A stretch of DNA of 47,305 bases from Terramyces sp. JEL0728. Lineage: Eukaryota; Chytridiomycota; Chytridiomycetes; Rhizophydiales; Terramycetaceae. Both the position numbers and the translations under genes were made by a program. Position 1 is the stretch's first letter, and every line of letters begins with the position of its first letter. The notes beneath the pieces were generated by a model. It had not been told where the DNA came from and made no database searches. It saw nothing but the letters and a program-made list of their open reading frames with translations. Positions 1-47,305 of this stretch are shown here, piece by piece. The stretch spans positions 1-47,305 of the forward strand of contig JADIIU010000099.1 of NCBI GenBank assembly GCA_027603945.1, read 5' to 3'.

Positions 1-366
1 TGGCAAAAAGTGCTCAAGGTAATCTGCCATTGAATTAGATTTCTCTTGAAGTGGTTTAGACAATATGAGTATTTTAATCCTGAACATTGGGACGAGCATT
101 CTGTAACTCTTCCACTGAAACTTTACGATAAAGATCCTTCATATGTAAATGCGTACGGCAAAGAACTCCTATCTTGGTGGCATCGCGATGTAAATCTGTT
201 GCCAATGTTTAAGCCTTACAAACCAGAGGACTGGGTAAATGTCTATGCTGTGCATTCCTTTTACCGCTCGTTCCAAGACGTTGTTGATTTTGAAACTGTG
301 AAAAAGATTCAGAATTCCTTTGGGCATTATGCTCGGTATATTCTGTATGGAGGCCCACCTATGTAG
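1..366 (+). CDS. GT32-type glycosyltransferase, copy A (3' part only)
   Basis: C-terminal part of a putative Golgi glycosyltransferase; the 5' part lies left of the window. Exons are 1-18 and 39-366, joined by the 20-nt intron GTAATCTGCCATTGAATTAG at 19-38. Splicing joins the frame of KKCSR to FLLKWFRQYEYF, and the stop is TAG at 364-366. The protein is a close paralog of the complete gene that follows (shared WDEHSV, LPMFK, VYA.HSFYR and ending in GPPM), and the intron sits at the same place with almost the same sequence. The pair is therefore a tandem duplication. The sugar-binding DxD region is not in the window, so function is transferred from copy B. Confidence 0.75.
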
Positions 367-465
367 AATAAAAGATCGCAGGTTTAGATTTGTGTTTAGC
401 ATCGAGTATTTACTGCACTTCTAACAACCCCTGTAACGCGAATAGAAAAGAACAACTTTTTTCTA

Positions 466-1541
466 ATGAAAGGTAACAGATCGTTGTGGAATATAATCGC
501 CACTACCATCATTACTACATTGATATGCAACCTAGCTATCCACTATTTCAACCACAATGCGGATCACGATATGCTGTCCCACCCGCAACATAAGCCAGAG
601 ACGATACCAGAGGATAAGGAACCTCTGAAGGAAACGAAATGCTATTTAGATCCAGTTCCAGACCAATTCCGAGCAGTTTCACTCTCTTCCAACGAGACTT
701 ACCACAGCATCAAAGAAGTGTGCTCAACTTATACCGAACAAGATTTTCAAAGTTGTACAGTCCCAAATGTAGTCCATCTGATTCCAGGAAGAGGGTTTAA
801 ATTTCATCACTACTTGAATATCAAAGCAATCAAGAAAATACTAAAGCCCGAACGTATCTATATCCATGGAGAGCTGCTTCCGTTCGACAACAAGTTTTTC
901 ATGCAATCAGTAGCCGAGTTTGACTTGGATTTAGTTGTTTCTAGAAACATTGAAACGATCTTTGACGGTGTCCCTGTTAGAAATGGCGAACACAGGGCAG
1001 ATATTTTGCGTATCGAGGCTTTGTTGAAGTACGGAGGAATATATCTTGACATGGACGCATATCCCATCAAACCATTTGAACAGTTTTTAAAAGACGAGTT
1101 TTCAATTGGTTACCAAAATCAAGAAGAAAATTACGGACTAAATAATGGAATTATGATTGCTAAAAAGTGCTCAAGGTAATCTGCTATTGAATTAGATTTC
1201 TCTTGAAGTGGTACGAACAATACAAGTCCTTCAATCCAGAGAATTGGGACGAGCATTCAGTGCAATTGCCAATGAAACTGTATGAACAAGATTCGTCGCA
1301 TGTCAAGGCTTACAAGCACAAACTCCTCTCTTGGTGGTGCTTTGATGGTAATCCTAAAACACTGCCAATGTTCAAAAAATACAAACAGTCGGAATGGAGA
1401 GATGTATACGCCATCCATTCGTTCTACCGTGTATATGAAGGAACAACACCTTTCCCAATTGATTTTGACACTGTAAAAACCCTAGACAACAGTTTTGGTA
1501 GGTTTGCACGACACGTGCTGTACGATGGGCCTCCCATGTAA
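466..1541 (+). CDS. GT32-type (OCH1-like DxD) glycosyltransferase, copy B
   Basis: Exons 466-1175 and 1196-1541, joined by the 20-nt intron GTAATCTGCTATTGAATTAG, give 351 aa. A short basic N-terminus and a hydrophobic stretch at about residues 7-28 form a type II signal anchor, as expected for a Golgi enzyme. The family core is clear: VHLIPGRGFKFHHY, then DILRIEALLKYGGIYLDMDA at about residues 187-206, which holds the R, YGG and DxD elements that bind the nucleotide sugar and metal in the GT32 (Gly_transf_sug) family. The C-terminal exon carries VYAIHSFYR, which resembles the acceptor-side HxxxxS/W region. Donor and acceptor sugars cannot be told from sequence. It is the second member of a tandem pair. 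GT32 membership is well supported; a specific OCH1-type mannosyltransferase role is not. Confidence 0.85.
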
Positions 1542-1679
1542 TCAAAACGAATATATTAGTATTGGGGGTTTCAAAGTGCGTGCCAAGTAATACGGAATAT
1601 TACTTGTCCGTCAGTCTTACCTTTGGACAGTACAACAAAAGTAGGCTGCGAGCAATTATTTCTTTTTCAACCGCGTACT

Positions 1680-2054
1680 TTATATCTCCTTTGAGCAACA
1701 CTGCTTGTACTTGAACAGTAGCCAGACGAAACTTTTTTGTTGCTTCAATCTAGTATTAACAAAGAGTACCAACACTTGTGTTGCTTTGCGACGGTATTCC
1801 TTGTCTATAATTTGGATTATATCTTGGTAGTCTCCAGACCAATTATCATATTTCAAGTCGGCGAATGCGTCTTTCATGCAGTGTATTAGTAGTACAAGGT
1901 CAGTTTTTGGTTCGATTAATGATTCCAGTGCTGATTCGATTGTCGCAGTGCTATTATTCGATGAGTCGACTGGAAAGCAAATTATTCTTTCATGGTTGAA
2001 CTCTTCCAATGGTTCGATAATAGTTTCTCGAAATGTCAAGTTTGAAATTTCCAA
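1680..2054 (-). CDS. doubtful hypothetical ORF
   Basis: This is an open frame of about 124 codons with protein-like composition (LVLLIHCMKDAFADLK, then KATQVLVLFVNTRLKQQ) but no in-frame ATG at its 5' end. An upstream ATG at 2080 could join it through a 32-nt GT-AG intron (2038 to about 2069 region), giving a start MSNDMVI then KTIIEPLEEF; this is speculative. I do not recognise the product. It may be a real short gene, an exon of one, or a relic. It lies alone between the GT32 pair and FAH. Confidence 0.28.
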   Translation of the reverse strand: MEISNLTFRETIIEPLEEFNHERIICFPVDSSNNSTATIESALESLIEPKTDLVLLIHCMKDAFADLKYDNWSGDYQDIIQIIDKEYRRKATQVLVLFVNTRLKQQKSFVWLLFKYKQCCSKEI

Positions 2055-2064
2055 TGACTGATAA

Positions 2065-2177
2065 CCATATCATTACTCATATCGACTAATGTTGAGGTTC
2101 CCAATATTATTACTTGCATCGAGTAATGATGAAAAACACCCAATGCTATTAATTGTATCGAGCAATGACGAAAATTC
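2065..2177. repeat. degenerate tandem repeat, three copies of about 37 nt
   Basis: Three diverged copies (about 2065-2100, 2101-2138 and 2139-2176) follow the pattern CCAATATTATTACTTGCATC then GAGTAATGATGAAAA. Copy 2 contains a perfect 6-bp inverted repeat, ATTACT/AGTAAT, around a 7-nt loop; copy 1 has CATTA/TAATG. They lie in the otherwise sparse 1542-2300 stretch upstream of FAH. Function is unknown. Confidence 0.6.
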
Positions 2178-2300: not shown

Positions 2301-3631
2301 ATGTCGTTTGTAGATTACGATGCAGACACTGATTTCCCAATCACCAACATTCCATTCGGAATCATCTCCACATTCGCAGATGTAATGCAGCGCTAATCTA
2401 GCTTGCTCCGAGACCAGCTACTGCGATCGGCAATTTTGCTGTCGATTTGAAAGCACTGGCAAATATCGGTGCTTTCAAAGGACCATTATTTTCAAAGCAT
2501 GCTGTTCACGCCTTCTCTCAAGTAGCCGCTGTTAATCTAGGAAACTTTGAATGATTTCATGGCTTTAGGAAGACCAGTCTGGAGAGAAGTCCGAGCTACA
2601 ATTCAAGATCTTTTGTCTGCCAATGGATCTGGTATGCTGTCTGGAAACAGGGCTTTGCAAGATAAAGTTTTGATCCCGTTAGAGCAAGTTAGATACCACT
2701 TGCCTGCAAAGATTGGCGATTACACTGATTTCTATTCTTCAAAAGAGCATGCTACCAATGTCGGAACAATGTTTAGAGGAAAGGATAATGCGCTAATGCC
2801 TAACTGGGTCCATATCCCGGTCGCATACCACGGAAGAGCTTCTTCTGTGGTTGTATCCGGAACTCCTATTAAACGTCCATCTGGTATTACTCTTGACCCG
2901 GAAACAAAGAAGCCAGGATTCAGCGTTTGTCGCAAATTGGATATTGAATTGGAAGTTGCCTTCTTTGTTGGCGTTGGTAATAAATTGGGAGAAAACATCC
3001 CAGTTACTGCAGCGGAAGAACACATTTTTGGCATGGTGGTAATGAATGACTGGTCTGCTCGCGATATTCAGCAATTCGAATATGTTCCATTGGGACCATT
3101 CCTTGGAAAGAACTTTGGAACCACCGTTTCACCATGGATCGTTACTTTGGATGCCCTTGAAGAACACAGAGTTCCTTTACCTGTCCAAGATCCTACCCCA
3201 TCTGATTATTTGGTTGATCCAAACAGCGAAAAAGACCAATATGATGTTGAGTTGGAGGTATACTGGAAATGTAACTATAATTAACTTTAGCAAGCACCTC
3301 CGAACCTACCCTTGTTTCAAAATCAAACTTGAAATACATGTACTGGTCGTTCAAGCAGCAATTGGCTCACCACTCAATTAACGGATGCAGTATGAACACT
3401 GGTGATTTGTTGGGAAGTGGCACCATATCTGGACCAACTGAAGATTCCTACGGCTCGTTCTTGGAACTAACTTGGAATGGAACCAAACCAGTCACTCTTC
3501 AAGACGGAAGCTCAAGAACCTTCCTATTAGATGGTGATGAAATTACCCTCAAAGGCACCTGCAAAGGAAAGAATCGTATTGGATTTGGGTCGTGTTCAGG
3601 AGTCATTCTTCCTGCCAACTTGCATAAATAA
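2301..3631 (+). CDS. FAH: fumarylacetoacetase (fumarylacetoacetate hydrolase)
   Basis: Last step of tyrosine catabolism: hydrolyses fumarylacetoacetate to fumarate and acetoacetate in the cytosol. Exons are 2301-2381, 2402-2521, 2541-3270 and 3291-3631, giving 423 aa against 419 in the human enzyme. The introns are GTAATGCAGCGCTAATCTAG (20), GTAGCCGCTGTTAATCTAG (19) and GTAACTATAATTAACTTTAG (20). Removing them restores the family sequence through [23 protein letters not shown] and SNLKYMYW. Active-site blocks are present: [15 protein letters not shown] (metal Asp and catalytic His), [13 protein letters not shown] (two metal Glu), [11 protein letters not shown] and [10 protein letters not shown] (metal Asp, Arg, Lys). 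The start ATG follows an A-rich tract. Without splicing, the frame breaks at all three introns. UNG begins 75 bp downstream on the same strand. Confidence 0.96.
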
Positions 3632-3706: not shown

Positions 3707-4541
3707 ATGTCCAGCAAACCAATCACTGCATTTTTCAAGCCAACAAAGAAAAGAGAAAGGCCAGATCAAGGGGATAAAGAAAACGTAAAGAAATTCAAAT
3801 CGCTTGATTTCCCTGACGTTTGGGCCGTTGCATTGAATACCGAAGTAAAGAAACCGTACTTTGCAAAGGTAAATCTTGGTAACACAGTTGATGGAATTGG
3901 TCGACAATGATCCTGGTCCAGTTTATCCGCCAATTGAGGATCGGTATACGTTCATGCAGTGTCCAATTGACCAAATCAAGTGTGTGATCATTGGCCAAGA
4001 TCCCTACCATGGCAAAAACCAAGCCCATGGATTGTGTTTCTCTGTTAGAAAAGGTTCTTTATTGTAACGTAGGTGTAAGAATCCCGCCTTCGTTGCAAAA
4101 CATTTACACTGAATTATCAAACGACATTGAGGGATTCGTATCGCCTACTCATGGATGTTTGGAGAATTGGGTAAACGAAGGTTTGTATGATTAATGCAGG
4201 TGTGCTGTTGCTGAATGCGAGTTTGAGTGTCCATGAAGGAAAACCAAATTCCCATGCTGGATTTGGCTGGGCTGCGTTTACCGATGCAATTATTAGCCAT
4301 ATCAATCAAAAGTGTGAAGGAGTTGTATTTCTCTTGTGGGGTGGGCAAGTGTTATTAATCCAGGTTTGCTCAACGAAAGGGGGCAAAGATTGACAAGAAG
4401 CGTCATTTGGTGTTAAGCGCAACTCATCCTTCGCCTTTAGGGGCAAACAAAGGCGGTTGGTTTGGTTGCAAGCATTTCTCAAAGACCAACGAATACTTGG
4501 TAGCGAATGAGAAAGAACCAATAAACTGGGCAAATTTGTAA
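3707..4541 (+). CDS. UNG: uracil-DNA glycosylase (family 1)
   Basis: Removes uracil from DNA in base excision repair. Five exons (3707-3868, 3888-4053, 4073-4180, 4200-4344, 4364-4541) give 252 aa. All four introns are exactly 19 nt: GTAAATCTTGGTAACACAG, GTTCTTTATTGTAACGTAG, GTTTGTATGATTAATGCAG and the GC-AG intron GCAAGTGTTATTAATCCAG. Diagnostic motifs follow in order: GQDPYHG (water-activating Asp), the uracil-pocket [25 protein letters not shown] and [18 protein letters not shown] (catalytic His and DNA-intercalation loop). The N-terminus KPITAFFKP resembles a PCNA-interacting (PIP) box, as in nuclear UNG2; it has Lys where the consensus has Gln. No mitochondrial presequence is seen in this start form. 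Confidence 0.95.
4345..4363 (+). other. 19-nt GC-AG intron in UNG
   Basis: GCAAGTGTTATTAATCCAG lies between the codons for WGG and FAQRKG. Only this exact excision keeps the conserved LLWG...AQ.KG segment in frame; the overlapping GT dinucleotides do not. GCAAGT is the classical GC-AG donor, and TTAAT is the branch-like motif. Confidence 0.85.
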
Positions 4542-4579
4542 TTTAATAATTAATATTTCATTGGAAAAACTAGTATACA

Positions 4580-5674
4580 CTACTTTTGAGCTAAAGAGTG
4601 CTGTAAAGCAGCCAACGCAAAGTTAGCCAATGGTTCATCATCATCCGAATCGTCATTAGCAACCCTTCTCTTGTCCTTTTTCACGCTTTTTTGTCTATTG
4701 ACTTTGCTCCTAGATCTCGACAAATCTTCTCTCTCCGCTCCCACCCGGCTTTTGCTTCTTGATAAAGAAACATCGTCTGTCGGGGCTTTTTTACTCTTGC
4801 TACGAGAAAGAGACTCTCCGGATTTTTGTGGTTTTGTTTTTGATGAGCGTGAACGGTATAAAGTAACTTCGGCATCCTGTTTCTTGACTCCGACGTGCGT
4901 TAACAAGCCGCCATTAGCAAATTCGTCAATTGGCGCATCCTTTAATCTGCTTATCGTCCCTCTTCTCTCTACACTCACCTTGTCCAGCAATGTACCTTTA
5001 GTAAATTTAGAATCGGCAGACATGTCAACCAAGGTTTTATCGTATCTCGAAGCCTTTCTATTTAACGAACTGCTTGGGTTGGATTCTGGCGTGTCTGGTC
5101 TTTTGAGGGTCATTGACTTTTTATGCGCCAAATTAATGATCGGTTCATCTTCGTCAGATGACCTTTTCTTCATTGATTTCCTGCGTGAAAGATCTATATC
5201 ATCATCAGATTTCTTCTTGACAGATTTTTTGCGGTTGAGCGATATTTTAATATCAGGAGACAAGTATGCAGGACTGTTTGGTCTGAGAGAATCCGCAGGC
5301 TTTGGGATGCCGGGGGCAGGTTCCTCGATGTGTATAATAGATCCCATAAAGTTTGAAAAATCATTGCTTGAAGATAGAGGGACTCCAAAATCACTCCCCA
5401 AGAGTCCTTGAGCGGTAAATTCTTCTCTTCCGTCGAAACTCTTCTTTGGAAGAGTGTGCAGATAATTATCGTTGATTGAGTGAATAGACGGAGCTCTTGA
5501 TGAAGGAGCGTTAATTGAAGGTGTTGGCGATCTGGTGTGGTTTACCCTTGGACGCTGTACCTTTGGTTGGTTGTCGAGTTTCTCCTGCGCTTTAACATTC
5601 AGAGTTTCGGTAGAGGTGCTGGCTTTGTTTTTACGCCTTTTAAATAAGGTAGAGAATATCCCACAGAACTTCAT
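4580..5674 (-). CDS. basic Ser/Lys/Arg-rich repeat protein, unrecognised
   Basis: Single-exon ORF of 364 aa with ATG at 5674. Most of it looks disordered. From about residue 145 it carries repeated short modules of Leu-(S/N)-R-(R/K)-K-S-(M/V)-K-K followed by acidic clusters (LNRKKSVKKKSDDD, LSRRKSMKKRSSDED, LAHKKSMTLK), then LSRSKS and LSRSRS copies. Many R-x-x-S and R-K-S sites look like basophilic kinase targets. The N-terminus MKFCGIFSTLFKRRKNK combines Cys, hydrophobic and polybasic residues, which could give S-acylated membrane attachment (inference). The C-terminus DDDEPLANFALAALQHSLAQ is the only helix-like segment. It converges on UNG with a 38-bp gap. I recognise no family. Confidence 0.7.
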   Translation of the reverse strand: MKFCGIFSTLFKRRKNKASTSTETLNVKAQEKLDNQPKVQRPRVNHTRSPTPSINAPSSRAPSIHSINDNYLHTLPKKSFDGREEFTAQGLLGSDFGVPLSSSNDFSNFMGSIIHIEEPAPGIPKPADSLRPNSPAYLSPDIKISLNRKKSVKKKSDDDIDLSRRKSMKKRSSDEDEPIINLAHKKSMTLKRPDTPESNPSSSLNRKASRYDKTLVDMSADSKFTKGTLLDKVSVERRGTISRLKDAPIDEFANGGLLTHVGVKKQDAEVTLYRSRSSKTKPQKSGESLSRSKSKKAPTDDVSLSRSKSRVGAEREDLSRSRSKVNRQKSVKKDKRRVANDDSDDDEPLANFALAALQHSLAQK

Positions 5675-5979: not shown

Positions 5980-7337
5980 TTAAAATACCCAAATATCTTG
6001 AATTAACTTCCGGATCTTGTGATACGTCAACCCCCTCAATCTTGCGGGATCGTCTGCAGATTTAGGTATTTGAACATTCGTTACGACACGCTTAACCCCA
6101 CAGTCAAATATAACCGGCGAGCATTCATCGCAAGGCATTTTAGTGGACACAATTGTCGCGCCTTCAAGGCTTTTACTTGGTCTCATACGCCATAGCAGAC
6201 AGTTTTGTTCTGGGTCAACGAGTATTACCAGCATGTAAGATATAATCGTATTTCATTGCATCTTGGCCCACAAAATCATCGGCACCAGCTTGGGGATACG
6301 CTAGAATTTCGAGGTTAATTAATGGCTACCTGCTTTTTTAGGATATCCATTCCATCCCACAGACCCGTATGTATTATCGGGATATACCAGCAAGGAGCTG
6401 CATTAGTCAATGTTTACCCCACACCTACTTTGGGATCATCCGTTCTTTTCGCAGCAATATGGGCCAAAACTATCGCGTGTTGGTAAATCTCTATATTCTC
6501 TAATGGAATATCTTTGGCGATATGCTTTGGTATTTTCTGATATTTGCGTTTGAGGTACGCTAGTGCTTGTACAGTTTTATCGAAATTAGCTGCGAGAGCA
6601 GGATACTGCTTATATAACTGCGGTGTATTTGCGATAGTATCGTCGACCTCCCAAAGCAAGTTCTCTGACAATCCTCCTGCCACTGGCGAAGTGCATGGAG
6701 ATATAAAAGTATTGGTTTCAGACCATGTTGGGATAAACCTCGTCATTGCTATTGGGTTATTCGCAATTAAACGTCGAACTGACTCTAAATTAGAGTCTTT
6801 CTTTTCCTGTATCCTAAACTTCAAGCTCTGCTGGTCAATTTGGCAATCTGGAGTTTCAAATTGTTCTTGGGAGAGGCAATAATTATCCCAATCCATTTCC
6901 CACTCTTTGGCTGGAAAGCAATATATTTTCCTTATTCCTGCTTGAACCATCATTTTCGTACACCTATATTAACATCGTATACATGGAGCATGGGAAACGT
7001 GATACAAATCTGGTATTAGTAAGTATTACATGTCGCATCCAGCAGGGTCGACCGGGCTTGATAATATCGCTTTGACAATTGAATGACTTTCGCTCGTACA
7101 TTGCAGAGAGAGTATCCTTTCCCGCGAATCTACCAGAACGCATCCCGTCGGCCTGACTCCGTACAGTGTTTTCGGTTTGCGCTGGGGAAACAATTCCATC
7201 CATAGAGCAATTAGCATGAACATGTCTCTGGATCTAACTCTTGTTGCATTGTTTGCAACTAGCATTTCGTCGCTCATTTTTACTGCGGGGGAAAGAAGCG
7301 CTGCGGAAACCCCTGAAAAACACTCAGCTGATTTCAT
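5980..7337 (-). CDS. CDADC1: CDADC1-type double cytidine/dCMP deaminase-domain protein
   Basis: Minus-strand exons: 7030-7337, 6983-7009 (27 nt), 6418-6963, 6330-6397, 6229-6300, 5980-6209; 416 aa. Introns are 20, 19, 20, 29 and 19 nt. The order matches vertebrate CDADC1: a leader with MFMLIALWMELFPQ; an N-terminal deaminase-like domain with PCSMCTKMMVQAGIRKI but a degraded H-x-E (ESHSIVKAI); a helical linker ending in AKRTDDPKVGVG; and a C-terminal domain with intact HAEQN and STKMPCDECSPVI zinc ligands. HAEQN exists only after removal of the 19-nt intron GTAATACTCGTTGACCCAG. The family deaminates deoxycytidine nucleotides; human CDADC1 has been reported as a dCTP deaminase. The C-terminal domain is predicted active and the N-terminal one not. 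The start at 7337 is the first in-frame ATG, but an ATG 20 codons downstream is possible. The very C-terminus could use another small exon. Confidence 0.88.
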
Positions 7338-7430
7338 TTGTACTACCAAGTGCAAAAATGCGTGCAAGATATTAGTTCCATTGCTGGAGCGAGAATCAGC
7401 TCCAACTGCTGCTACCAAATAGAGTAAAGA

Positions 7431-8330
7431 TTAATTTATTTTGCGCTCTTTAGTTTCCCGTAGATTTTCTTTAGTCGATCTCCCATCAAACTTTTTAGTT
7501 TCGATCTCTTCTGTCCCAAGCCAAATCCCCTCAATATCCATCTCTAGCCGAGATTTTTCAGTAAAGCAGTGAACCATATACCTTCCTAAATCAAGCATCT
7601 TCCAATCGTCAGAGTCTATTCCGTCGATTGATAGATTAGGTGGCATGAAATGTGCATATTCGTATCGATGTTTCGCCTATGTATTAATTTTACTTACCAG
7701 GCGTCTTATGGAATCCGCCAACGAGTGGATTTGTTTCGTGGATATTCCTTCGCATATTATAATCGCATCCATATGATCGCATTTGAGACTTGTATCAATA
7801 ACTGTGATATTGAATCCTTTTTCTTTTCGCAGCGTATAAACAATTTCTTCAACAGTAATAGGCTTGGAAGTATCGAATTCCTTTTCTTGTTCAAGACCCA
7901 TACTTCTCTTTGCAGCTTTTCTTATTCCTTGTTTCCAACGTGGTTCAGCATTTACGACAGTGTCTTTAAACCAGTCGATATCTTCGGGTACTGTATTTGA
8001 AGGAGCAAACTCATGCCTGGCATCGTACAAATGATCCACAGACTGCTTCTCGATAGTTCTTTTTGGTTCTTGCTCCTTGACATTGTCCAAATGCTCTGGC
8101 TCTATTCTTTCCAATTTAAACTTTATTTCCCTGACTGATTCTGATTCTGATTCGATTGCTTCGTCAGGTCCTGTAAATTCCTTGAGAGCAGCTTGTTTCT
8201 CCAATTTCTTTTCGGTTACAAACCAGTTATCCAGCAGCTGATCGGTAATCTTTTCCAGTTCCGCTCTAGGATTTTCTCTCCTCCTTCTAGCAAGACGAAT
8301 CGCTGTGGTGCTGAATAGCCTCCTGAACAT
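7431..8330 (-). CDS. mitochondrial RsfS/Iojap-family ribosome silencing factor (MALSU1/Atp25-N type)
   Basis: Exons 7698-8330 and 7431-7676, with a 21-nt intron at 7677-7697 that contains an in-frame TAG if retained; 292 aa. The N-terminus MFRRLFSTTAIRLARRRR is a typical mitochondrial presequence. A long charged linker is followed by the RsfS fold from about residue 170: ITVEEIVYTLRKEKGFNITV, DAIIICEGISTKQIHSLADS, then after the splice RLAKHRYEYAHF and DSDDWKMLDLGRYMVHCF, ending WLGTEE. RsfS proteins bind uL14 of the large mitoribosomal subunit and act in its assembly or subunit anti-association. Fungal Atp25 carries an extra C-terminal domain, absent here, so this is closer to MALSU1. Confidence 0.88.
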
Positions 8331-8411
8331 TTTTAGTGTGGATCAAAAAAAAAAGTAAAACCAAAGTATTTTCTATGCTTTTTTTATTTACAAGGATAAC
8401 AAAAAATGAAT

Positions 8412-8588
8412 TTAAATCACTAATAGTAACTCGGCTCCTTCTCCAAACTTTTTGTGCTTTGACATTTTCACTTTCTTTGTGTTCTTTTCGCTTACATTCC
8501 TGGTGACTAGTTCCTTCTTTGGCTTTTGTAGCATAAAGGCTGAGAATCCTACTGTTCCGACGGCTGCGACTACTCTTTGGATAGACAT
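8412..8588 (-). CDS. 58-aa small protein with N-terminal hydrophobic segment
   Basis: ATG at 8588, stop TAA at 8412-8414. The N-terminus MSIQRVVAAVGTVGFSAFML is a short hydrophobic/amphipathic segment; the rest is Lys-rich (KPKKELVTRN, KKVKMSKHKKFGEG). This layout is common in small mitochondrial inner-membrane or ER proteins, but I recognise no family. A TATA-like element stands 33 nt upstream of the ATG, which supports a real transcription unit. Confidence 0.55.
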   Translation of the reverse strand: MSIQRVVAAVGTVGFSAFMLQKPKKELVTRNVSEKNTKKVKMSKHKKFGEGAELLLVI

Positions 8589-9063: not shown

Positions 9064-10779
9064 TCATCCACTCCACTGCACATTATCTTTTTCCTTCTTT
9101 GTATTATAATAGTCTTTTCCCTTCTTACCGTGCGAGCTTCCGGTGCCCAGCTTCTTCCTATCAGTCTTACCGCTGGCACCGATAACAAGATTGACTTGGG
9201 GAGGAACAGTAAATCCATACGCCAAACCCACTTTTTGCAGGTCGAGTGAATTAATATCAAAGATCTGTTTAAGTGAATGCGATGCGTATGCTTGAAGATA
9301 CGACCTGTATCCTTCTTTTGCGGACCTGTTAAGATAGTAGTTCTTTTCCATCAATCTCTCCAATTGTTTCTGAACGTTGGCAATCTTGCTTGGAGGGAAT
9401 TGATATTCATTTAACGGCACCTTAGCCTGTTTTAAGAATCTCAGGAAGCCAAGCTCGGATGGAAGCAAAAACAATAGTGCTTTGCCTCTACCTCCAGCTC
9501 TTGCAGTTCTACCAACTCGGTGAATGTATTCTCTTGGATCATCTGGAGGATCAAACTGGATAATCCAATCTACCGCAGGAATATCAAGCCCACGAGCAGC
9601 AACATCGGTACAAATCATGATACCGCTTTCAGCGTTGACAAATTCAAAGAAAGTATTTGTGCGTTTTTGCTGTTTTTGTTTACCCTAGAATAAAATCAAA
9701 TGTACATGCAAATCCAAGACTGGAATATCGATATAATTGAGCAATTCGCCATGGAATTTAACTGCATTGCAAGACGACATAAAGACGATAACTTTCTTTT
9801 TAAGATTCTTTTTCAAGAAAGTGAACAGCAGCAAGAACCGTTGTTCAGAAGGACAGACTACATATCCCTGGTATTAGGATAAAATACTTGTTCTAGACCA
9901 TCTGCAGTTGCCATATCTTTATGTTCGTCAACATTGATATATAGTGGCCCCTTTTTCAAGGAAACTCTAGCTAAATCTTCAACTTTTGTGGTTTGCGTTG
10001 CTGAAAACAACATAGTTTGGCGTTCTGAATAAGCGCATTATTACCTTGTGGTACCAAGTTCATAATTTGATGCATTTCTTCTTCGAAACCAACTTCCAGG
10101 ATACGGTCAGCTTCGTCGATAATCAGCATTTTCAAATTCTTTGTAATGAATCCTTTTGTATTTTGCAAATGATCGAGTAAACGGCCGGGAGTAGCAACTA
10201 ATAGATTCACACCCTTGTTTAATTTATCGGCTTCAGCTTTTCTGTTTGCCCCTCCCATGATAATACCAAATGTTTGGGAGTGGTGCTCCATCAATTCCTT
10301 TGCTACGCCAAATATTTGAAGAGCCAATTCTCTTGTTGGCGAAATAATTAACACACCGGTTCCTAATATTAGAATTGCCTACCATTTCTTGGTTTGAAAG
10401 ACAATTTATGAAGCATTTCTACTGCTGGCAGCAAGAATGCCAGCGTTTTTCCAGAGCCGGTTTTAGCAGCACCCAAAATATCCCTGCCTGTCATTGCTGC
10501 AGGGATGGAACGAGCTTGCACCTGAGTCATTTGTTTAAATCCAAGAGAATCAATGGCTTTTTGTGTGTGTTCGGATAAACTCAATGATTCAAAACTAGTA
10601 TCTGCCTCTGAATTGAAAGCTTCAGAAACTATTGGCTCCATTTTACTTTTCTTCTTTGCTGGTTCCTGTTCCGGTTCGTTTTCTTCGACATCTTCCATGG
10701 TTTCAGTTACGTCGACGTCTTGCTCTTCTACTGGTTCACTATTCTCCTCCTTTGATTTGGACTTTCTCTTTCTTGCCAT
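9064..10779 (-). CDS. HAS1: DEAD-box RNA helicase HAS1/DDX18
   Basis: Nucleolar ATP-dependent RNA helicase for 40S and 60S ribosome biogenesis. Minus-strand exons: 10383-10779, 10045-10362, 9888-10024, 9706-9867, 9064-9684; 544 aa. Introns are GTAGGCAATTCTAATATTAG, GTAATAATGCGCTTATTCAG, GTATTTTATCCTAATACCAG and one of 21 nt at 9685-9705. Motifs in order: Q motif region [19 protein letters not shown]; Ia PTRELA; Ib [60 protein letters not shown] and the C-terminal [13 protein letters not shown] with VGLAYGF are HAS1-specific. The N-terminus is a charged Lys/Glu tail ([10 protein letters not shown]). ATG 10779 was chosen because the family begins there; the frame upstream is not conserved. Confidence 0.96.
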
Positions 10780-10894: not shown

Positions 10895-11306
10895 CTACAA
10901 TACAGAGTCCAATTGCGCAGATTCCATAGCAATTTCCTTTAGTTTCAAATCTACATTTCCGGCTAATAGGAAGCTTTTGCGATGCCCATCAGTCATAATT
11001 TCATCACCGTATATTGATTTCACCCTTTCAGCCCGTCTCTTTCTCTTTTCCAAAATTGCAGTTTGATCCATCTTTTCCTGCTGATATTCCTTCAATTGCT
11101 TTATATTTACAGAAGATTCTTGTAGTACTAGTTCCGCTAGCGATACGTCCCACGAGTTTGCAATGCTGAATCAGTAAATAGTACCTTTGGAGGCGTTCAA
11201 CAGAGGAAACGTTCTGCTCTTGTCTGGCTGAATTGTGAAAAGCTTCCTTTTTAGATATCGGTCTAGCACAATATAAGGCCAACCGCAGTTTCTGTCTGCT
11301 GCTCAT
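10895..11306 (-). CDS. 130-aa basic helical protein, unrecognised
   Basis: Exons 11185-11306 and 10895-11165, with the 19-nt intron GTACTATTTACTGATTCAG; stop TAG. The sequence begins MSSRQKLRLALYCARPISKK and continues with EAFHNSARQEQNVSSVERLQ, then a heptad-like stretch (about residues 58-90, EYQQEKMDQTAILEKRKRRA). It ends in a helix KLKEIAMESAQLDSVL. The composition suggests a small coiled-coil subunit of a complex. I do not recognise the family. It lies head-to-tail between the seven-TM gene and HAS1. Confidence 0.7.
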
Positions 11307-12867: not shown

Positions 12868-14032
12868 TCACAAACGCAAGTTTGCAATGCCAGAGGACAA
12901 CAAATCCCAAATAACTAGCTGGCCATCAACACCAGTGGTGGAGAATTGAGTAACGCGATCGCCAGAACCAGAATATGGTCTTACGCAAGTAATAGTATTT
13001 TGGTGAGTAGTGTTTAATTCTACATCGGCATTAGTAGCCTGAGCTCTAGAGTCCATTTGCTTGAATTTGTTAAATGCGCTGTTGCCCGATTCTTGCTTCT
13101 TCTTTCCACTGTCGATTTTTGCAGCCAATTCCCATGAAGTGCCTTTGTTCATTACAACATAGGGAGCACAGTCGTGGCCTGCGACAACAATAGTATATTC
13201 AGAGGCCCAGAATAATGAAATGAACGGAAGATTGCTGGTTTGAATTACTTGAACAGGCTGATTTGGTCCATTAGCAATGCTAATGGTAGAGTCATGAGCA
13301 GCATATGCCATCGCATTACCAGAAGGCGAAAAGGATACACCGTGTACCCAGCCTACTATCAAGTTCTATTTACCTCCAGCTCCAAATTCCCCACAAATTG
13401 TACCAAAGGGTAACTTTTCACCCCATACGGCGTTAGACGCTTTGGCATCAATACCTTTGATCCAGGCTGAAAATACTCTGGCTTTCATATCAGATGAACC
13501 GGCGGCTAAAAGAATGTTTTCAGGATGCCAGTCTACACTTAACACTGTGGATCTAATTGGCTTTTTGAGATGCTTGGATACCCACCAATTGTGTTCTTCT
13601 TCAAAGTAACAAACTGGGTAAATTTATAATTACCAGAGATTAATCGAGCACCAGACGCAACTGCAAATTTGTCTTCCCTTGGCGACCATCTCACATGAGT
13701 AGCTGCTCGGTTGATACGGAGTAATACCAAGGTTGGATTCCAGGTTTGAGCACTCGCATCCCAAGTCCAAACATAGGCGTTCCTGTCTTGAGAACAAGTA
13801 ACGATACGGTCTGCGTTAAATATACAATACTAGAGTTTGGAGCCCAATCGACACAGGTTACAAGCTTATCATGGTCAGTCAGAGTCTGGGAAAGTTGCCA
13901 GTTGCTGCCTTGTTTTTGATAAATTGAAACTTCATTGCTGTTTGGCGACAATACAAGCTCAGTGCGGGTTTTGTTAAACGAGTGGGAAGTAATCGGGGTT
14001 CCGACGAGTAACTGATGGCTTTCGATCGACAT
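12868..14032 (-). CDS. ARPC1: Arp2/3 complex subunit 1 (ARPC1/Arc40), WD40 protein
   Basis: WD40 subunit of the Arp2/3 actin-nucleating complex. Minus-strand exons: 13831-14032, 13634-13810, 13374-13613, 12868-13352; 367 aa (372 in human ARPC1B). Introns are GTATTGTATATTTAACGCAG, GTAATTATAAATTTACCCAG and one of 21 nt at 13353-13373. Family landmarks appear in order: [79 protein letters not shown] and HDSTISIA. The ARPC1-specific insert is followed by [15 protein letters not shown]. The splice at NSNRIV matches the human sequence exactly. Stop is TGA. Confidence 0.96.
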
Positions 14033-16573: not shown

Positions 16574-16788
16574 CAATTGCTTTTGTTTAAAATGTTGAAA
16601 GCAAGGATTTGATTGCTCCATATGTGGCTTTGTTGAGGCGTAAACGGCAATGAAACGAAACAGAAAGCGGCGCGGGATCTGATGGTAGATGGACAAATAG
16701 TTAGGACCGCGAGCAAGTGTCACTTTTCAGAGAATGGCCAATCCGGAATCTTAAATCCAAAGACGAGGAATACAAGTATTGAACATAT

Positions 16789-39564: not shown

Positions 39565-40388
39565 TTAGTGTGAGGAATCCTGCTGGATGTAAAGGTATTG
39601 ATTAGATGGAGTTTTCTTTACGAGAATATTCCTTCTTGTATCTTCAACAATCAACAGCAAGATATTAGATTCTAGTAGGTTGATTAGTGAAAACAAGAGC
39701 TTCAGCCAAGGCTCCACGGCGGGTAGCTCGCCTGATATAGCCCCAACCAATTCAATCAAGATGATACTGGAGGTGAAAAGAAAGTTGTTGATACTGAGCC
39801 GAATCCAAATCTTTCTTTCGTCTGGGTGGGCAGCTTTGTCGCCGTATGAGGAAATAGCCTTTGCTATAAATGGATACGCGTACAACCCATACAGTACACA
39901 TCGATTGACCAAGCAAATGTAGTTTGCAGGAAAGTAAATTGCAACAATGATGCAGTACGGCATGTCAGCTGGAACATTAAAAGCTGTGACCCCGATACAA
40001 ATCTCACTAACCCCAGAAACCAAAATTTGCAAGCAGCAGATAAAAGTGTATATCTTTTGGTTTGTAGAGCTTAACGAGTAATGCAAGAAGCTTCGAGCCC
40101 TGAGAAGTAATACTCCATCCAAGCAGCAAATCCACAATGCTTGATTAAATTACGATTACCATAAAACAGTATCCCAATATTTCCAAGTAATATACAATTG
40201 ATTCGCGGTACAAGCAATTCGACTAATAGCGAGAGCGCTCTCGCAGCACAGAGAACTATTTGGGCAAAGATTGCAATTGGACCAATCCTGAAGCTTGTAA
40301 TATCACGGCTCAAGTACCCGGCTTCGCCTGATAATACAAGTAACGTTACTGTGAGAAATGCCGCTGTGATTTTGGTTGTGCTGTCCAT
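39565..40388 (-). CDS. seven-TM protein, array copy 1
   Basis: Exons 40160-40388 (229 nt) and 39565-40139, with the 20-nt intron GTAATCGTAATTTAATCAAG; 267 aa. About seven hydrophobic helices and little else. The most conserved segment is encoded right after the splice: YALWICCLDGVLLLRARSFL. Others are AGYLSRDITSFRIGPIAIFA, FPANYICLVNRCVLYGLYAY and PWLKLLFSLINLLESNILLL. Exon 1 length and intron position are the same in all three array members. The array is possibly receptor-like or lineage-specific; no function is known to me. ATG 40388 is the first ATG in frame. Confidence 0.72.
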
Positions 40389-40635: not shown

Positions 40636-41483
40636 TCAATCAAGCTCCGAAGCCTTCCTGGCGTGTTGACTGTTGCTAGATTTGGTTTGCTTTGCATTTG
40701 AATTTTGGTTCTTATTAATATTCTTCTTTGTGTCATCGACAATCAACAACAAGATGTTTGATTCCACAAAATTGATGAGGGAAAAGAAGAGCTTGAGCCA
40801 TGGAACCAAACCTGGGATATTACCAATAACAGCAGCTAGCAACTCGATCAAGATAATAGTGAGAGTGAAAACACCGTTGTTGATACTGAGCCGTAACCAG
40901 ATATCAGTGTCGTTGAGGTTGGAACTATTCTTGTCCTTGTACGCTGATATTGCTTTGGCAATGAACGGATAAGCATACAACGCATACAACAGACATCGAT
41001 TAGCCAAACATACATAGTTTGCCGGAAAGAAATTGGCAAGAATGATACAGTACGGCATGATGAATGGCAAGTTAAATGCAGTAGCCGCGATATAAATTTC
41101 ACTGACACCAGAAATCAAGATTTGGAAGCAGCACCAATAAGTATAGATCTTCTGCCACTTTGAACTGACAGAGAACTGCAAGAATGTGCGAGCGCGGAGC
41201 AATAATAAACCATCCAGACAACATATCCACAGAGCTACATTAACTTTCACCTACCATAAACAGCAATACCTATATTGCCAAGTAACGCACAGTTGATCCC
41301 GGGAATGAGTAATTCTACTAACAAAGTGAGAGCTCTGAGAGCACACAGAAAGATTTGGGCAAACACTGCAATCGGAGCTATTCGATAATTAGTGATATCG
41401 CGGATCAAGTACCCGGCTTCACCTGCTAAAATTAGTAAGGTTGCGGTAACTACGGCGACATTGATTTGAGTACTGTCATCCAT
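40636..41483 (-). CDS. seven-TM protein, array copy 2
   Basis: Exons 41255-41483 (229 nt) and 40636-41234, with intron GTAGGTGAAAGTTAATGTAG (20 nt); 275 aa from ATG 41483. Same fold as copy 1, with VYALWICCLDGLLLLRARTF across the splice. It is nearly identical to copy 3 from the third helix to near the C-terminus, including the intron. The N-terminal 40 residues and the C-terminal tail (KNQNSNAKQTKSSNSQ) differ. Confidence 0.72.
40715..41369. repeat. near-identical tract shared with 41841-42495
   Basis: About 655 nt of copy 2 match copy 3 (offset 1,126 nt) with roughly ten differences seen by eye, clustered near 40740-40860. The tract covers exon 2, the intron and half of exon 1, then identity stops abruptly near 41369/42495 and near the C-terminal tail. 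Confidence 0.8.
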
Positions 41484-41767: not shown

Positions 41768-42609
41768 TCATTCGTTATCCATAGTCTTCTTATTGCTTTG
41801 GCTTTGAACAGATTTAGAATTCTTACTTTGTGCGTTCCTCTTAATATTCTTCTTTGTGTCATCGACAATTAACAACAAGATGTTTGATTCCACAAAATTG
41901 ATGAGGGAAAAGAAGAGCTTGAGCCATGGAACCAAGTCAGGGATACTACCAATAACAGCAGCCAGCAACTCGATCAAGATAATAGTGAGAGTGAAAACAC
42001 CGTTGTTGATACTGAGCCGTAACCAGATATCAGTGTCGTTGAGGTTGGAACTATTCTTGTCCTTGTACGCTGATATTGCTTTGGCAATGAACGGATAAGC
42101 ATACAACGCATACAACAGACATCGATTAGCCAAACATACATAGTTTGCCGGAAAGAAATTGGCAAGAATGATACAGTACGGCATGATGAATGGCAAGTTA
42201 AATGCAGTAGCCGCGATATAAATTTCACTGACACCAGAAATCAAGATTTGGAAGCAGCACCAATAAGTATAGATCTTCTGCCACTTTGAACTGACAGAGA
42301 ACTGCAAGAATGTGCGAGCGCGGAGCAATAATAAACCATCCAGACAACATATCCACAGAGCTACATTAACTTTCACCTACCATAAACAGCAATACCTATA
42401 TTGCCAAGTAACGCACAGTTGATCCCGGGAATGAGTAATTCTACTAACAAAGTGAGAGCTCTGAGAGCACACAGAAAGATTTGGGCAAACACTGCGATAG
42501 GAGCAGCGCGGAGGTTGGAAATATCCCGGCTTAAGTACCCTGCTTCCGCTACAAGAATGAGCAACGTGGCTGTAATTACAGTGACATTGATTTGGGTAGT
42601 GCTATTCAT
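41768..42609 (-). CDS. seven-TM protein, array copy 3
   Basis: Exons 42381-42609 (229 nt) and 41768-42360, with intron GTAGGTGAAAGTTAATGTAG, identical to copy 2; 273 aa from ATG 42609. The N-terminus MNSTTQINVTVITATLLILV diverges from copy 2, and the tail (KSVQSQSNKKTMDNE) is different again. Topology and conserved blocks are as in copies 1 and 2. The array reads head-to-tail, all on the minus strand. Confidence 0.72.
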
Positions 42610-42654
42610 TGGCAAGTATTAAATTTTTGAAACTTTCCATCGCGATCTTAGATA

Positions 42655-43140: not shown

Positions 43141-43691
43141 TTAAGAGAAAAACGAAGATCTCTTTAATTGGTCTTGAGCAGATTTCCATACAGAAGAAAG
43201 AGTTTGATCTGCAATAGGAATACTTTCTTGCAGCTTGGCAACTCTAGAACAAACAACACTGCTGTCAGTCTCCAAAATAACACTAAGTAAGGAATACTTT
43301 ACCCATCATCAATGGTTTCATCCAATACTAATAAAACTGTATCCAGGTTATCCATCAAACTCCTTTTTTCCATTTGATTCTTTAATAGATTTGAACAAGC
43401 ATCAATAAAGCAATTTAATACACCAACGAGCATAATTTCATTTTCATCCAATCCGCCGACAACGTAAATAAACAAATCAACCACTGGTTTGTAAACAACA
43501 ACTAGGTTATCGAATAGGATGATATCAGAATTAGTTTTTCTTGTTTTTTCAAACAGTGTCTTTTCCAGTTTTTGAGAATCCTTTTTTTCTATCGGGTAAT
43601 AGTATTTTGATAGTAGTTTCTTGCCTTCCGAGTCGAATATGAAGACGCTTTTGATTGATTTGAGAGTTAGATTACACCAGGTTTTTACCAT
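43141..43691 (-). CDS. COPZ: coatomer subunit zeta (COPI)
   Basis: Small longin-type subunit of the COPI coat for Golgi-to-ER retrograde transport (yeast Ret3). Exons 43303-43691 and 43141-43282, with the 20-nt intron GTAAAGTATTCCTTACTTAG; 176 aa, normal for the family. Landmarks: SIKSVFIFDSEGKKLLSKYY, VVVYKPVVDLFIYVVGG, ENEIMLVGVLNCFIDACSNL, LDTVLLVLDETIDDG joined by the splice to VILETDSSVVCSRVA. A GTATAAAA element lies 46-53 nt upstream of the ATG. Confidence 0.94.
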
Positions 43692-44729: not shown

Positions 44730-45661
44730 TTACTTTTTCTTCTTGTTCTTTTTAACTGGTTCCTTCTTTTCTTCCTTTATTTCTTTAGGTTCTTCCTTCT
44801 TCTTGTCAAATGCATACGACAACAACCCAGCCAATTGCAATCCAACAAGAATATAAATCAAGTTGAACTTGTATTGAGTTGCCATCGCAGTTCTGCTAAC
44901 GAATTGCGGAGTGATTTCCAACTTTGTGCCGACTCCATTTCGCATCATGTTTTGCCAATAGTACAACATGGTGAAATAGTTCATGTTTTCGTACGCATCC
45001 AATCCAGCAACGATTAATGGAATATATTGACTGCCGTACATTTGCGCTACTGGACTGTCGTTGCCTTCATCAAAAGTAATTGAAAACAGCTGGCGCTGTA
45101 AAATAGTTACTGAAATCAAAAGCAAGTAATCAAAAACGAGGTAAATCCCATAGTATAATCTACCAGCTGGACCGTTGATTTCCATGAACTGAATCATCTC
45201 ATTGTATCCCAAATATGGTTTGAAATCAAGTGGAAAAGTAGCGAGGAAACGATCATTTTGATCTAATGGAACAGTTCCAACTTCCAAATCATGGCTTTGA
45301 TAGAAAATACCAAACTGGCTGAGTATCATTTGACTAGGATTAGCGATAAATACTAGAACAAGAACCCCATTACTCCAATACATAATACTGACCATAGAAT
45401 AGTCAAGAATACGTCTGTCCAAGTCGCTCTTCGCTTTCTTTTGCCCAAAGTAAACAAGAGAATGGCTGTAAAAGCTACTCCAAAAAAGATATCAGCATTG
45501 TCAATCAGAACCAATACTTGCTGTTGTTGCTGCGGTGGTAAGCTTGAATAAACGTGTTGTAAAGTCGTCCAGATTTGCATGGCGACTGTTTTGATCAAGT
45601 AAAGGATCAAATGGGGGATTTGGTTGTACCAGTACCAAATTTGCTGTAGAACTTCAAGCAT
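44730..45661 (-). CDS. polytopic membrane protein with Lys-rich C-terminal tail, unrecognised
   Basis: Exons 45354-45661 and 44730-45333, with intron GTATTTATCGCTAATCCTAG (20 nt); 303 aa from ATG 45661. The two halves overlap as separate open frames before splicing; excision gives GFLFYQMILSQFGIFYQSHD. About four to five hydrophobic helices: FFGVAFTAILLFTLGKRKRR, FLTILWSVLCIGVMGFLF, YYGIYLVFDYLLLISVTIL and LIYILVGLQLAGLLSY. The tail KKEEPKEIKEEKKEPVKKNK is charged and ends in KKKK, as in ER proteins with dilysine-like tails (inference). Family unknown. Confidence 0.68.
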
Positions 45662-45800
45662 AGGTAAAAAATTTGACTGCTTTTTTTGTGATACGTGGAT
45701 TCAGGAACCTTGTGATTAATGTTGCGGTTATTCTGAAAGCAGTTGCCAAAGTAATATCTGAAATTTGGATTGGTTCAATTTAAAGTGCCTTTATTACACA

Positions 45801-46630
45801 TCAATTCGTTTTCCCTGATTTCACCACTGACTCGAATTTGGAAGTTTCTTCCTTGGCGGAAACAATCTCCTTGAATTCCTTTTTAGATTCAATCACTCTC
45901 TGCAGTACAAGCGACCAAGAAAGGCACTGGAATGGCGCAATGAATGTGGGGTAAACGATGCGCTCCGCTTGGCACACTACTTGAGCGATAAAAGAAGCAG
46001 TGATGATAAACGACAAGACGAACGAGTAGATGTTGATCTTGTTAACTACCCTGGCATCCGAGGCAAATTGACTGCGAATGTAAAAAGTAACAAAAGTTTC
46101 ATAGTAGAGAATTGTGATTAGCCCAGTGACATTCATAGCCATTCTGATTACTTGTCTCGCCATTGGAAATGGATCTTGCAAAGTGTATCCCCCGATAGTT
46201 GCCGAATCTGCCATAATACTACATACAGTAGTTGCAACTCTAAAGCAAAAGTGTACGCTTGCAAGCGGATAGGTTACATAATGTGTCCATGAAATCAGCT
46301 TTACACACTTTGCCCTGATGGTAAGCAAATGAAGAATAAAAAATACCGCAGTGGTGTGCAAGATTGATTGTACAATATCCACATACGCTGCAGTAATGTT
46401 GGTATACGAATCCACAAACGAGTTCAGCACAGTAGCGATCAATTGGAAACCCAATGCGAGAGAAACAGATACAGAGTACTGTGATACACCTTCCCATTCA
46501 ATCGTGGTTTTCAAAAGAGGAAAGAACAAGTTGCCTAATTCAAACAGTATTTACCGACTACACAAGCGTTACAGAACGCATTTACCATGATTGCAGCAGA
46601 AACTGGATCTGCAGTGCCTGTCTTGACCAT
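45801..46630 (-). CDS. seven-TM protein, second family, copy 1
   Basis: Exons 46555-46630 and 45801-46534, with intron GTAAATACTGTTTGAATTAG (20 nt); 269 aa from ATG 46630. About seven hydrophobic helices with short loops; TRAKCVKLISWTHYVTYPLA follows the third or fourth helix. The cytoplasmic C-terminus begins LVLQRVIESKKEFKEIVSAK. It differs in sequence from the 39565-42609 array but has the same size and topology. A TATATAA at 46665-46671 and a palindromic GACGTC at 46685-46690 lie upstream. A tandem paralog follows at the right edge. Confidence 0.72.
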
Positions 46631-47168
46631 TTTGAGTTTTGATTGCACAATTGAAGAGTGCGAGTTATATAGGCGCTAATGGGTGACGTCGATATCTTGT
46701 TCACTGAATGAGGTAGCATATGGTAATTGAACAGTAGATTGACGCTGTATTCTATACGTTTGAAAAGAGAGGAGCGAATCGAGCAAGTATCATTGAGGTT
46801 GCTTGCGTCGGATATCCAAGTTTGTCCAGTATTGACAGACGGACGCGCGGATTCGTGAATGTACACCAGAATTGCATCTGAAACTGGGTCACTAATACTT
46901 ATCTTTGCTATATCGATGGATTCAACCTGTCTATCACTTTAGTTGGTGACGTAAATGAAATATCCCTTTCAAGATATGAATGACAAAAATGATCAAGTGT
47001 TCAGTAGATAAGAACGTCATCCAGTGGTGATTCACCAGCGCTTTATAATTACCGCTCCTGCAAATAAAATAGTGGAATATAGATTAAATCATAAGGAGCA
47101 GTTTTGAGTTCTCATTTAAAGCACTCCTGCCATATTATTCCTCTACAGTAAACTAATATAAATCTTTA
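46631..47168. promoter_or_regulatory. 538-bp intergenic region with three TGACGT sites and a TATA element
   Basis: Upstream region of the 45801-46630 gene and 3' flank of the next paralog. TATATAA is at 46665-46671 (35 nt before the ATG). TGACGT is at 46684-46689 (in a GACGTC palindrome), near 46948 (GGTGACGTAAA), and in reverse near 47012 (AACGTCATCC). No ORF here is convincing. Confidence 0.4.
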
Positions 47169-47305
47169 TTATCCGATTGTTTTTGCGGTTTTCACCATCG
47201 TAGTCAGATGTCCACTTATCGAATTTGACCTATTCTTTGAAGATACCAATTCCTTGAATTCCTTTTTAGATTCAATCACTCTCTGCAGTACAAGCGACCA
47301 AGAAA
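47169..47305 (-). CDS. seven-TM protein, second family, copy 2 (C-terminal part only)
   Basis: Only the last 45 codons are inside the window; stop TAA at 47169-47171. The segment SWSLVLQRVIESKKEFKE is identical in protein to copy 1, and 47251-47305 is identical in DNA to 45868-45922 (55 nt up to the edge). The tail then diverges (LVSSKNRSNSISGHLTTMVK). The tandem period is 1,383 nt. Confidence 0.75.
   Translation of the reverse strand, partial: SWSLVLQRVIESKKEFKELVSSKNRSNSISGHLTTMVKTAKTIG

Follow-up and report, generated by a model that had tools for sequence, protein, structure and literature searches.

Genomes with ultrashort spliceosomal introns have been reported from ciliates, from the relic nucleus of an alga and from parasitic rhizarians. 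In Stentor coeruleus, introns are 15-16 nucleotides (nt) long and the branch-point adenosine (branch A) lies at position 10 of 15 or 11 of 16; the Stentor paper singles out three branching factors, Cwc25, Yju2 and Isy1 (PMC9505925). Further cases can be missed systematically, because one survey of more than 3000 genomes excluded all introns shorter than 30 bp (PMC10639083). The DNA considered here is contig JADIIU010000099.1 at its full length of 47,305 nt (the window; contig C99). Segments of 19-22 nt that interrupt its reading frames are very probably genuine spliceosomal introns of the major (U2-dependent) type, belonging to a chytrid fungus near Boothiomyces and shrunk nearly everywhere in the genome to about 20 nt, a length that few known introns undercut. 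They are taken for introns because their length peak appears without any prior on motif or length and vanishes with decoy dinucleotide pairs, and because their removal restores conserved proteins. As far as sequence can tell, they are of the U2 type, with GT/GC...AG ends, a branch motif near the 3' end, and spliceosome genes in the same genome.

The genome has 15,016,339 bases (15.0 Mb) in 231 contigs, of which the window is one in its entirety. The nearest proteins in the comparisons were those of Boothiomyces, a chytrid of the Rhizophydiales and Terramycetaceae. Identity to Boothiomyces sp. JEL0866 is 98% in Prp8, and to Boothiomyces sp. JEL0838 it is 91% in RasGAP and 95% in Isy1. On these identities, the host is a chytrid that belongs to Boothiomyces or stands beside it. 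A single 18S rDNA pattern searched across the assembly gave no match.

Introns were modelled in the window and 20 additional 10-kb stretches, each from a different contig (247 kb in total), and in an enlarged set that also included four spliceosome loci (266.6 kb, 1.8% of the genome). The basic gene finder used a coding score and permitted any intron of 12-120 nt, with preference for neither motif nor length. Coding scores with two bases of context were adequate for gene finding; codon usage alone was too weak.

When restricted to GT-AG ends, this finder gave 81 introns over the 247 kb, 40 of them 19-21 nt long. On the same coding scores, which came from genes with GT/GC-AG introns, nine decoy dinucleotide pairs gave 59-81 introns each and only 1-5 of this length (TG-GA, 1; CT-AC, 4; GA-TG, 4; TG-AG, 2; GT-GA, 1; AG-GT, 2; AC-CT, 5; CA-TC, 5; TC-CA, 3). 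Without the restriction to GT-AG, 35 of 81 introns in the 247 kb were 19-21 nt long in the last round, and 32 of 78 had this length already in the first, in which the scores were trained on long open frames alone. Learned splice motifs without a length term gave 108 of 128 introns at 18-22 nt; because the seeds of this model were the 19-21 nt introns found without motifs, these counts depend in part on that length.

With motifs and a length prior, and counting only genes scoring above 20, 262 of the 273 introns of the enlarged set were 18-23 nt long (19 nt, 66; 20 nt, 121; 21 nt, 50; 22 nt, 21). The 273 include model faults, namely two introns of 14 nt, five zero-length exons in two tandem arrays, and introns of 111 and 84 nt that apparently bridge two genes; introns of 32, 71 and 75 nt enter the count unassessed. 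Introns of 21 nt are undercounted, because one that lacks an in-frame stop goes unnoticed; 42 of the 46 with a readable frame contain one. The density is about one intron per kb, or about 15,000 genome-wide if the sampled 1.8% is typical. As judged from the samples, ultrashort introns occur genome-wide in a narrow range, nearly all below about 25 nt.

A sequence-only reading of the window had proposed that ultrashort spliceosomal introns occur throughout a nuclear genome that has flagellar-type genes. The length distribution, the decoy pairs and the RasGAP alignment described below support this proposal, and HYDIN/CFAP-type genes are present in the 15-Mb genome. Within the window, 49 introns were modelled (11, 27, 9 and 2 of 19, 20, 21 and 22 nt, respectively), close to the 12, 30, 9 and 2 counted in that reading; with one hidden in-frame 21-nt intron the total is 50. 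The five segments that it had offered as examples (2382-2401, 2522-2540, 3271-3290, 4345-4363 and 27421-27439) each hold exactly a GT/GC...AG segment. That reading had 53 out of 55 introns at 19-22 nt, and the two outside this range could not be identified; an early run had placed two long introns in the window, of 73 and 86 nt, which the final run modelled at 19 and 20 nt.

Protein homology spans about 30 of the 50 window joins. Alignments with the best solved protein cross three joins in FAH, four in UNG, three in ARPC1, four in HAS1 and two in ribonucleotide reductase, with small gaps beside one join each in FAH, ARPC1 and HAS1. RasGAP aligns without a break at all seven joins with its orthologues from five other genera of chytrids. 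Joins also lie inside Pfam domains that span them in G-alpha (three), CDADC1 (two of three), zeta-COP (one) and GH31 (one), and the TIM-barrel match of GH31 is in two pieces before intron removal and whole after it. The hidden intron corresponds to a seven-residue insert in ribonucleotide reductase relative to the best solved relative, where 21 bases read GC-AG with a branch motif. In the Prp8 gene, six joins are continuous, five by alignment and the sixth by eye.

The window introns are listed below with coordinates and strand; all rest on the gene model except the hidden one, and further support is given where present. Several gene names are those of the sequence-only reading. Eight of the 49 modelled introns lie in genes scoring below 10, five of them in weak genes and three in the CDADC1-like gene (score 6).

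1176-1195, +, 20-nt intron, glycosyltransferase-like gene 466-1541; homology does not span the join
1750-1769, -, 20-nt candidate intron, very weak gene (score 3)
2382-2401, +, 20-nt intron, FAH gene 2301-3631; continuous with solved FAH
2522-2540, +, 19-nt intron, FAH; solved FAH
3271-3290, +, 20-nt intron, FAH; solved FAH, one-residue alignment gap at the join
3869-3887, +, 19-nt intron, UNG gene 3707-4541; solved-protein alignment
4054-4072, +, 19-nt intron, UNG; solved-protein alignment
4181-4199, +, 19-nt intron, UNG; solved-protein alignment
4345-4363, +, 19-nt GC-AG intron, UNG; solved-protein alignment
6398-6417, -, 20-nt intron, CDADC1-like gene (weak score); homology does not span the join
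6964-6982, -, 19-nt intron, CDADC1-like gene; within Pfam deaminase match
7010-7029, -, 20-nt intron, CDADC1-like gene; within Pfam deaminase match
7677-7697, -, 21-nt intron, gene 7431-8330
9685-9705, -, 21-nt intron, HAS1 helicase gene 9064-10779; solved-protein alignment
9868-9887, -, 20-nt intron, HAS1; solved-protein alignment
10025-10044, -, 20-nt intron, HAS1; solved-protein alignment, one-residue gap at the join
10363-10382, -, 20-nt intron, HAS1; solved-protein alignment
11166-11184, -, 19-nt intron, weakly scored gene (score 7)
13353-13373, -, 21-nt intron, ARPC1 gene 12868-14032; solved-protein alignment, three-residue gap beside the join
13614-13633, -, 20-nt intron, ARPC1; solved-protein alignment
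13811-13830, -, 20-nt intron, ARPC1; solved-protein alignment
14379-14397, -, 19-nt intron, RasGAP gene 14156-16621; continuous with chytrid orthologues
14881-14901, -, 21-nt intron, RasGAP; chytrid orthologues
15084-15103, -, 20-nt intron, RasGAP; chytrid orthologues
15518-15538, -, 21-nt intron, RasGAP; chytrid orthologues
15971-15990, -, 20-nt intron, RasGAP; chytrid orthologues
16237-16257, -, 21-nt intron, RasGAP; chytrid orthologues
16392-16413, -, 22-nt intron, RasGAP; chytrid orthologues, deposited JEL0838 protein wrong here
16891-16910, -, 20-nt intron, HYDIN-like gene 16789-26259
16972-16991, -, 20-nt intron, HYDIN-like gene
17201-17220, -, 20-nt GC-AG intron, HYDIN-like gene
17326-17346, -, 21-nt intron, HYDIN-like gene
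24840-24859, -, 20-nt intron, HYDIN-like gene
25668-25689, -, 22-nt intron, HYDIN-like gene
26116-26136, -, 21-nt intron, HYDIN-like gene
26749-26768, +, 20-nt intron, G-alpha gene 26476-27524; within Pfam G-alpha match 9-317
26930-26949, +, 20-nt intron, G-alpha; Pfam G-alpha match
27421-27439, +, 19-nt intron, G-alpha; Pfam G-alpha match
28224-28244, -, 21-nt intron, ribonucleotide reductase small subunit gene 27646-28671; solved-protein alignment
28579-28599, -, 21-nt GC-AG hidden intron, ribonucleotide reductase small subunit; no stop or frameshift, in-frame seven-residue insert
30550-30569, -, 20-nt intron, GH31 gene 29228-31940; Pfam TIM-barrel domain whole after joining
31729-31748, -, 20-nt intron, GH31 gene
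32333-32351, -, 19-nt intron, P450 gene
35491-35509, -, 19-nt intron, WD40 gene 33865-36544
39864-39883, -, 20-nt candidate intron, very weak gene (score 2)
41235-41254, -, 20-nt intron, gene 40636-41483 (score 9)
42361-42380, -, 20-nt intron, gene 41768-42609 (score 5)
43283-43302, -, 20-nt intron, zeta-COP-like gene; within Pfam match 13-149
45334-45353, -, 20-nt intron, gene 44730-45661
46535-46554, -, 20-nt intron, gene 45801-46630

The introns at 41235-41254 and 42361-42380, in neighbouring genes, are letter-for-letter identical.

Most introns, to judge by the 262 of 18-23 nt, consist of hardly anything beyond their signals, which are a 5' site resembling GTAATT, a branch motif resembling YTRAY that a few spare bases separate from it, and AG. 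GTAATT is the commonest 5' hexamer, G at position 5 is weak, and five of the 262 have GC-AG ends. YTRAY pentamers, among the 25 commonest pentamers listed, account for 190 introns. The branch A, assigned by the best-scoring pentamer, is at position 14 in 114 introns, 15 in 100, 16 in 30, 17 in 6 and 19 in 1; counted from the 5' site, positions 14-16 take in 244 of the 262, 14 or beyond 251, and 13 none, and the 11 introns with the branch A at 10-12 may be misassigned. From the branch A to the last G there are 4 bases in 19 introns, 5 in 123, 6 in 96, 7 in 11 and another number in 13, which puts it 4-7 nt from the intron end in 249. Among the 40 introns of 17-24 nt found without motifs, a branch motif was recognisable in 27, with the branch A at 14 in 18, 15 in 7, 17 in 1 and 10 in 1. 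In these sets, the spacing from 5' site to branch has a sharp floor of 14 nt.

Some public gene models of the group hold hidden errors, such as a 21-nt Prp8 intron read as codons and a garbled stretch in RasGAP. The deposited JEL0866 Prp8 has seven additional residues, RLSFTNC, exactly at the first Prp8 intron, after which the frame continues. With suitably chosen codons they can be back-translated to GTTAAGTTTTACTAACTGTAG, a 21-nt form of the 20-nt GTTGATTTTACTAACTGTAG of the present genome; at the other four modelled joins the deposited protein is correct. In the JEL0838 RasGAP the stretch from the first intron to the second is garbled, and three residues are missing at the sixth. That of Globomyces sp. 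JEL0801 lacks 30 residues across the fourth join and 35 up to the fifth, and ends with RYAIFYLR exactly at the seventh join of the present gene. These defects suggest introns that the Globomyces gene finder failed to model, of lengths unreadable from the protein. An unspliced intron is likely at the break, its length not given by the protein; to call it a retained 21-nt intron would be too strong, the protein stopping right after RYAIFYLR. When 11 Prp8 proteins of other fungi were screened for introns retained in frame, no convincing case emerged; the screen required GTA/GTG or GCA/GCG starts and hence missed the JEL0866 case.

An ordinary U2 small nuclear RNA (snRNA) was found (140 bits, Rfam), with its GUAGUA branch-pairing stretch intact, as were all seven spliceosome proteins sought (Prp8, Slu7, Prp18, SF1, Cwc25, Isy1 and Yju2). 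The idea that a branch-to-3'-end distance of about 5 nt had allowed Slu7 and Prp18 to become dispensable and disappear was rejected, since both are encoded. Cwc25 starts as the human protein does, MGGGDLNLKKSWHP, and keeps its plug, and the Yju2 N-terminus can be aligned with the human one. The same Cwc25 gene occurs on two contigs (L034 on C30 and L035 on C33) with similar surroundings, perhaps as uncollapsed haplotypes or a duplication. Two weak Rfam matches to U6 (L022 and L023; 27 bits versus a cut-off of 44), similar to each other, are probably not U6, which may be missing from the assembly, divergent or interrupted. At conserved columns, Prp8 has 64 substitutions in the host and 85 in Gorgonomyces, versus 13-51 in eight other fungi when each is compared with the host protein, and 24 are common to both; common descent explains this excess equally well.

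The Isy1 N-terminus has diverged, and alignments to eight solved relatives start only at residue 32-41 of the host protein. Host and JEL0838 Isy1 read MAPKTLAQKQE...ANILKKYDG instead of MARNEEKAQSMLYRFREAQ, the start in the Spizellomyces, Chytriomyces, Fimicolochytrium and Powellomyces models. The Kappamyces and Gorgonomyces starts are also far from it, and the Batrachochytrium salamandrivorans and Geranomyces michiganensis models start at MLYRFREAQ. Among 120 Isy1 matches, 62 have the MARNxEK-start pattern, 40 (including JEL0838) only a loose core pattern, and 18 neither; of these 18, two (P0310 and P0325) are conserved but escaped the pattern, and roughly half begin at an internal residue. 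A metagenome Isy1 (P0304) with an unusual N-terminal part possibly represents another organism with ultrashort introns. At the start of the host Isy1 gene (L037), three adjacent ultrashort-intron-like units in 70 nt could be separated by micro-exons or form one composite intron; micro-exons of 1 and 3 nt are doubtful, and the JEL0838 protein fits a single 70-nt piece.

Several results weigh against the interpretation as a whole. For 20 of the 50 window introns no homology spans the join, and a finder using only codon usage put just 10 of 32 window introns at ultrashort length. A plain motif scan of the window gave a modest excess at 20 nt (17 versus 6.2 expected); it is the reading-frame evidence that counts, rather than such a scan. 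Intron-like decoys in coding sequence are weakly depleted (49 versus 57 ± 6 after synonymous shuffling), and 4 of 60 shuffles were as low as observed, or 6 and 12 of 60 at stricter thresholds. U6 was not found in the assembly, either above the Rfam cut-off or by pattern, and no search was made for U1, U4, U5 or U2AF. The remainder of host Isy1 is conserved, the Globomyces Isy1 start is still recognisable (MANNQKEKQKSVVHRFREQ), and the link between Isy1 divergence and ultrashort introns, which is testable, is a correlation over few taxa and no proof.

Given genuine introns, an ordinary spliceosome would be expected to act by intron definition, with U1 and U6 on the 5' site and U2 on the branch motif. 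The lariat loop would be about 14 nt, the AG would be chosen at least 4 nt beyond the branch A, and a polypyrimidine tract would have no room. Deletions may have eroded the introns to the smallest accepted spacing from 5' site to branch, 14 nt, except where they carry cargo such as a small nucleolar RNA (snoRNA). In other spliceosomes the N-terminus of Isy1 extends into the active site; its divergence here is a candidate for a change that helps the tight loop to fit.

The chances are about even that no such change was involved, and that the introns have simply reached the minimum any spliceosome tolerates, with an unchanged machine and an Isy1 N-terminus that drifted for other reasons. The other proteins checked are ordinary, longer introns persist, and the start of Isy1 is kept in Globomyces, all as this would predict. 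Fungal introns are, on the other hand, not usually collapsed to 20 nt, and the 15-16 nt introns of Stentor also go with an Isy1 N-terminus reported as not conserved (PMC9505925). A broader scenario can be offered only tentatively and is rather unlikely. In it, a sublineage of the Rhizophydiales (Boothiomyces, perhaps Gorgonomyces, Kappamyces and Globomyces) would have evolved ultrashort introns independently through the alteration found in heterotrich ciliates, namely an Isy1 N-terminus that has diverged where branching is catalysed, allowing a 14-nt loop to be spliced by an otherwise complete spliceosome; introns would be long only as snoRNA hosts or in special genes, or would grow by tandem duplication of 20-nt units. 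Its likelihood is lowered by the recognisable Isy1 start of Globomyces, a genus whose intron length cannot be read from protein.

It is improbable that the longer pieces are all tandem arrays and that the machine is unable to remove much above 22 nt. Two pieces do look like arrays. In a proteasome-alpha-like gene (L013, +, 4462-5338), an 81-nt piece between GRSQ and VQRAQ consists of a 21-nt unit followed by three identical 20-nt units and is, by this structure, a tandem duplication of the entire intron. In a trehalase-like gene (L014, -, 6072-8555), a 65-nt non-coding piece consists of three GT..AG units of 22, 21 and 22 nt; both gene names come from reading the proteins. Such decomposition is rare: among the sampled GT..AG stretches it occurs once in the 1334 with a length of 81 nt and twice in the 1466 with one of 65 nt, both arrays being counted. 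Other long introns are unlike arrays by eye, namely those of 44 and 102 nt in an RPL7-like gene (L005, 2891-3852), 45 nt in an RPS3-like gene and 48 nt in an importin-like gene, likewise named by reading the proteins. Longer introns are therefore evidently spliceable. The 102-nt intron overlaps a match to snR39-like C/D snoRNA (28.7 bits, E 0.0044, under the Rfam cut-off of 40); in budding yeast, snR39 likewise lies within an RPL7 intron. The suggestion in the sequence-only reading that the spliceosome measures intron length holds as to the sharp floor, with the branch A never at 13, and fails as to an absolute ceiling, which these four introns in apparently conserved genes rule out.

Sequencing or assembly indels, which would make the frameshifts errors and the removed segments an artefact of reading, could also account for the lack of matches to the 18S and U6 patterns in the assembly, but are very unlikely to explain pieces that share GT, branch motif and AG at near-fixed spacing, show no peak with decoy pairs, restore conserved proteins and apparently recur, in a 21-nt form, in the deposited JEL0866 Prp8. 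Non-spliceosomal removal (DNA elimination, tRNA-type or Ire1-type RNA cutting, or translational bypass) would suit short, uniform pieces and is equally far-fetched in view of the GT/GC-AG ends, the near-fixed branch motif, the ordinary U2 snRNA and the set of spliceosome proteins; stems and TA ends were not searched.

Introns of about 20 nt in a major-type spliceosomal setting are apparently new for Fungi, and the host would join the small class of ultrashort-intron genomes. In keeping with the earlier suggestion of a new or poorly described case, none is reported for fungi in the titles and abstract openings listed from one open-access library, covering aphelids and chytrids, among the latter several Rhizophydiales genera; Amses et al. 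2022 (the Globomyces genome; cited in PMC13391722) was outside this scope. A fungal genome that probably contains thousands of 20-nt introns, and that retains every spliceosome protein checked, moves the problem of how small an intron can be, and of which part of the active site decides this, close to the yeast and human systems of known structure.

Of the known systems, chlorarachniophytes and heterotrichs had been named as precedents in the sequence-only reading, and the mikrocytids, with introns of 16-17 nt, had been omitted (PMC10245619). The introns of the chlorarachniophyte nucleomorph (18-21 nt) have a nearly identical length range, but that is a relic nucleus with a reduced genome (PMC10245619), whereas the present one is a 15-Mb fungal genome. 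Those of Mikrocytos mackini are likewise uniform and ultrashort; the same paper gives 224 introns and a highly reduced spliceosome, in contrast to about one intron per kb and seven of seven sought proteins here. At 15.0 Mb and with all these proteins found, the present genome stands, on current sequence, outside the reduced-genome, reduced-spliceosome class of nucleomorph and mikrocytid. Paramecium and Nyctotherus also have short, uniform introns, which at about 25 bp are longer and belong to ciliates (PMC5014332). The likeness to Stentor (PMC9505925) extends to ultrashort GT-AG introns with GUAAUU as the commonest start, a normal U2 branch-pairing sequence, a branch A 5 nt from the intron end and an Isy1 N-terminus conserved in neither. 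Unlike those of Stentor, the introns described here are mostly 19-22 nt long, with a clear branch motif and the branch A at 14-16, so that the 5'-side spacing is four longer; the Cwc25 plug, lost in Stentor, is kept, and Slu7 and Prp18, listed there as not found, are present.

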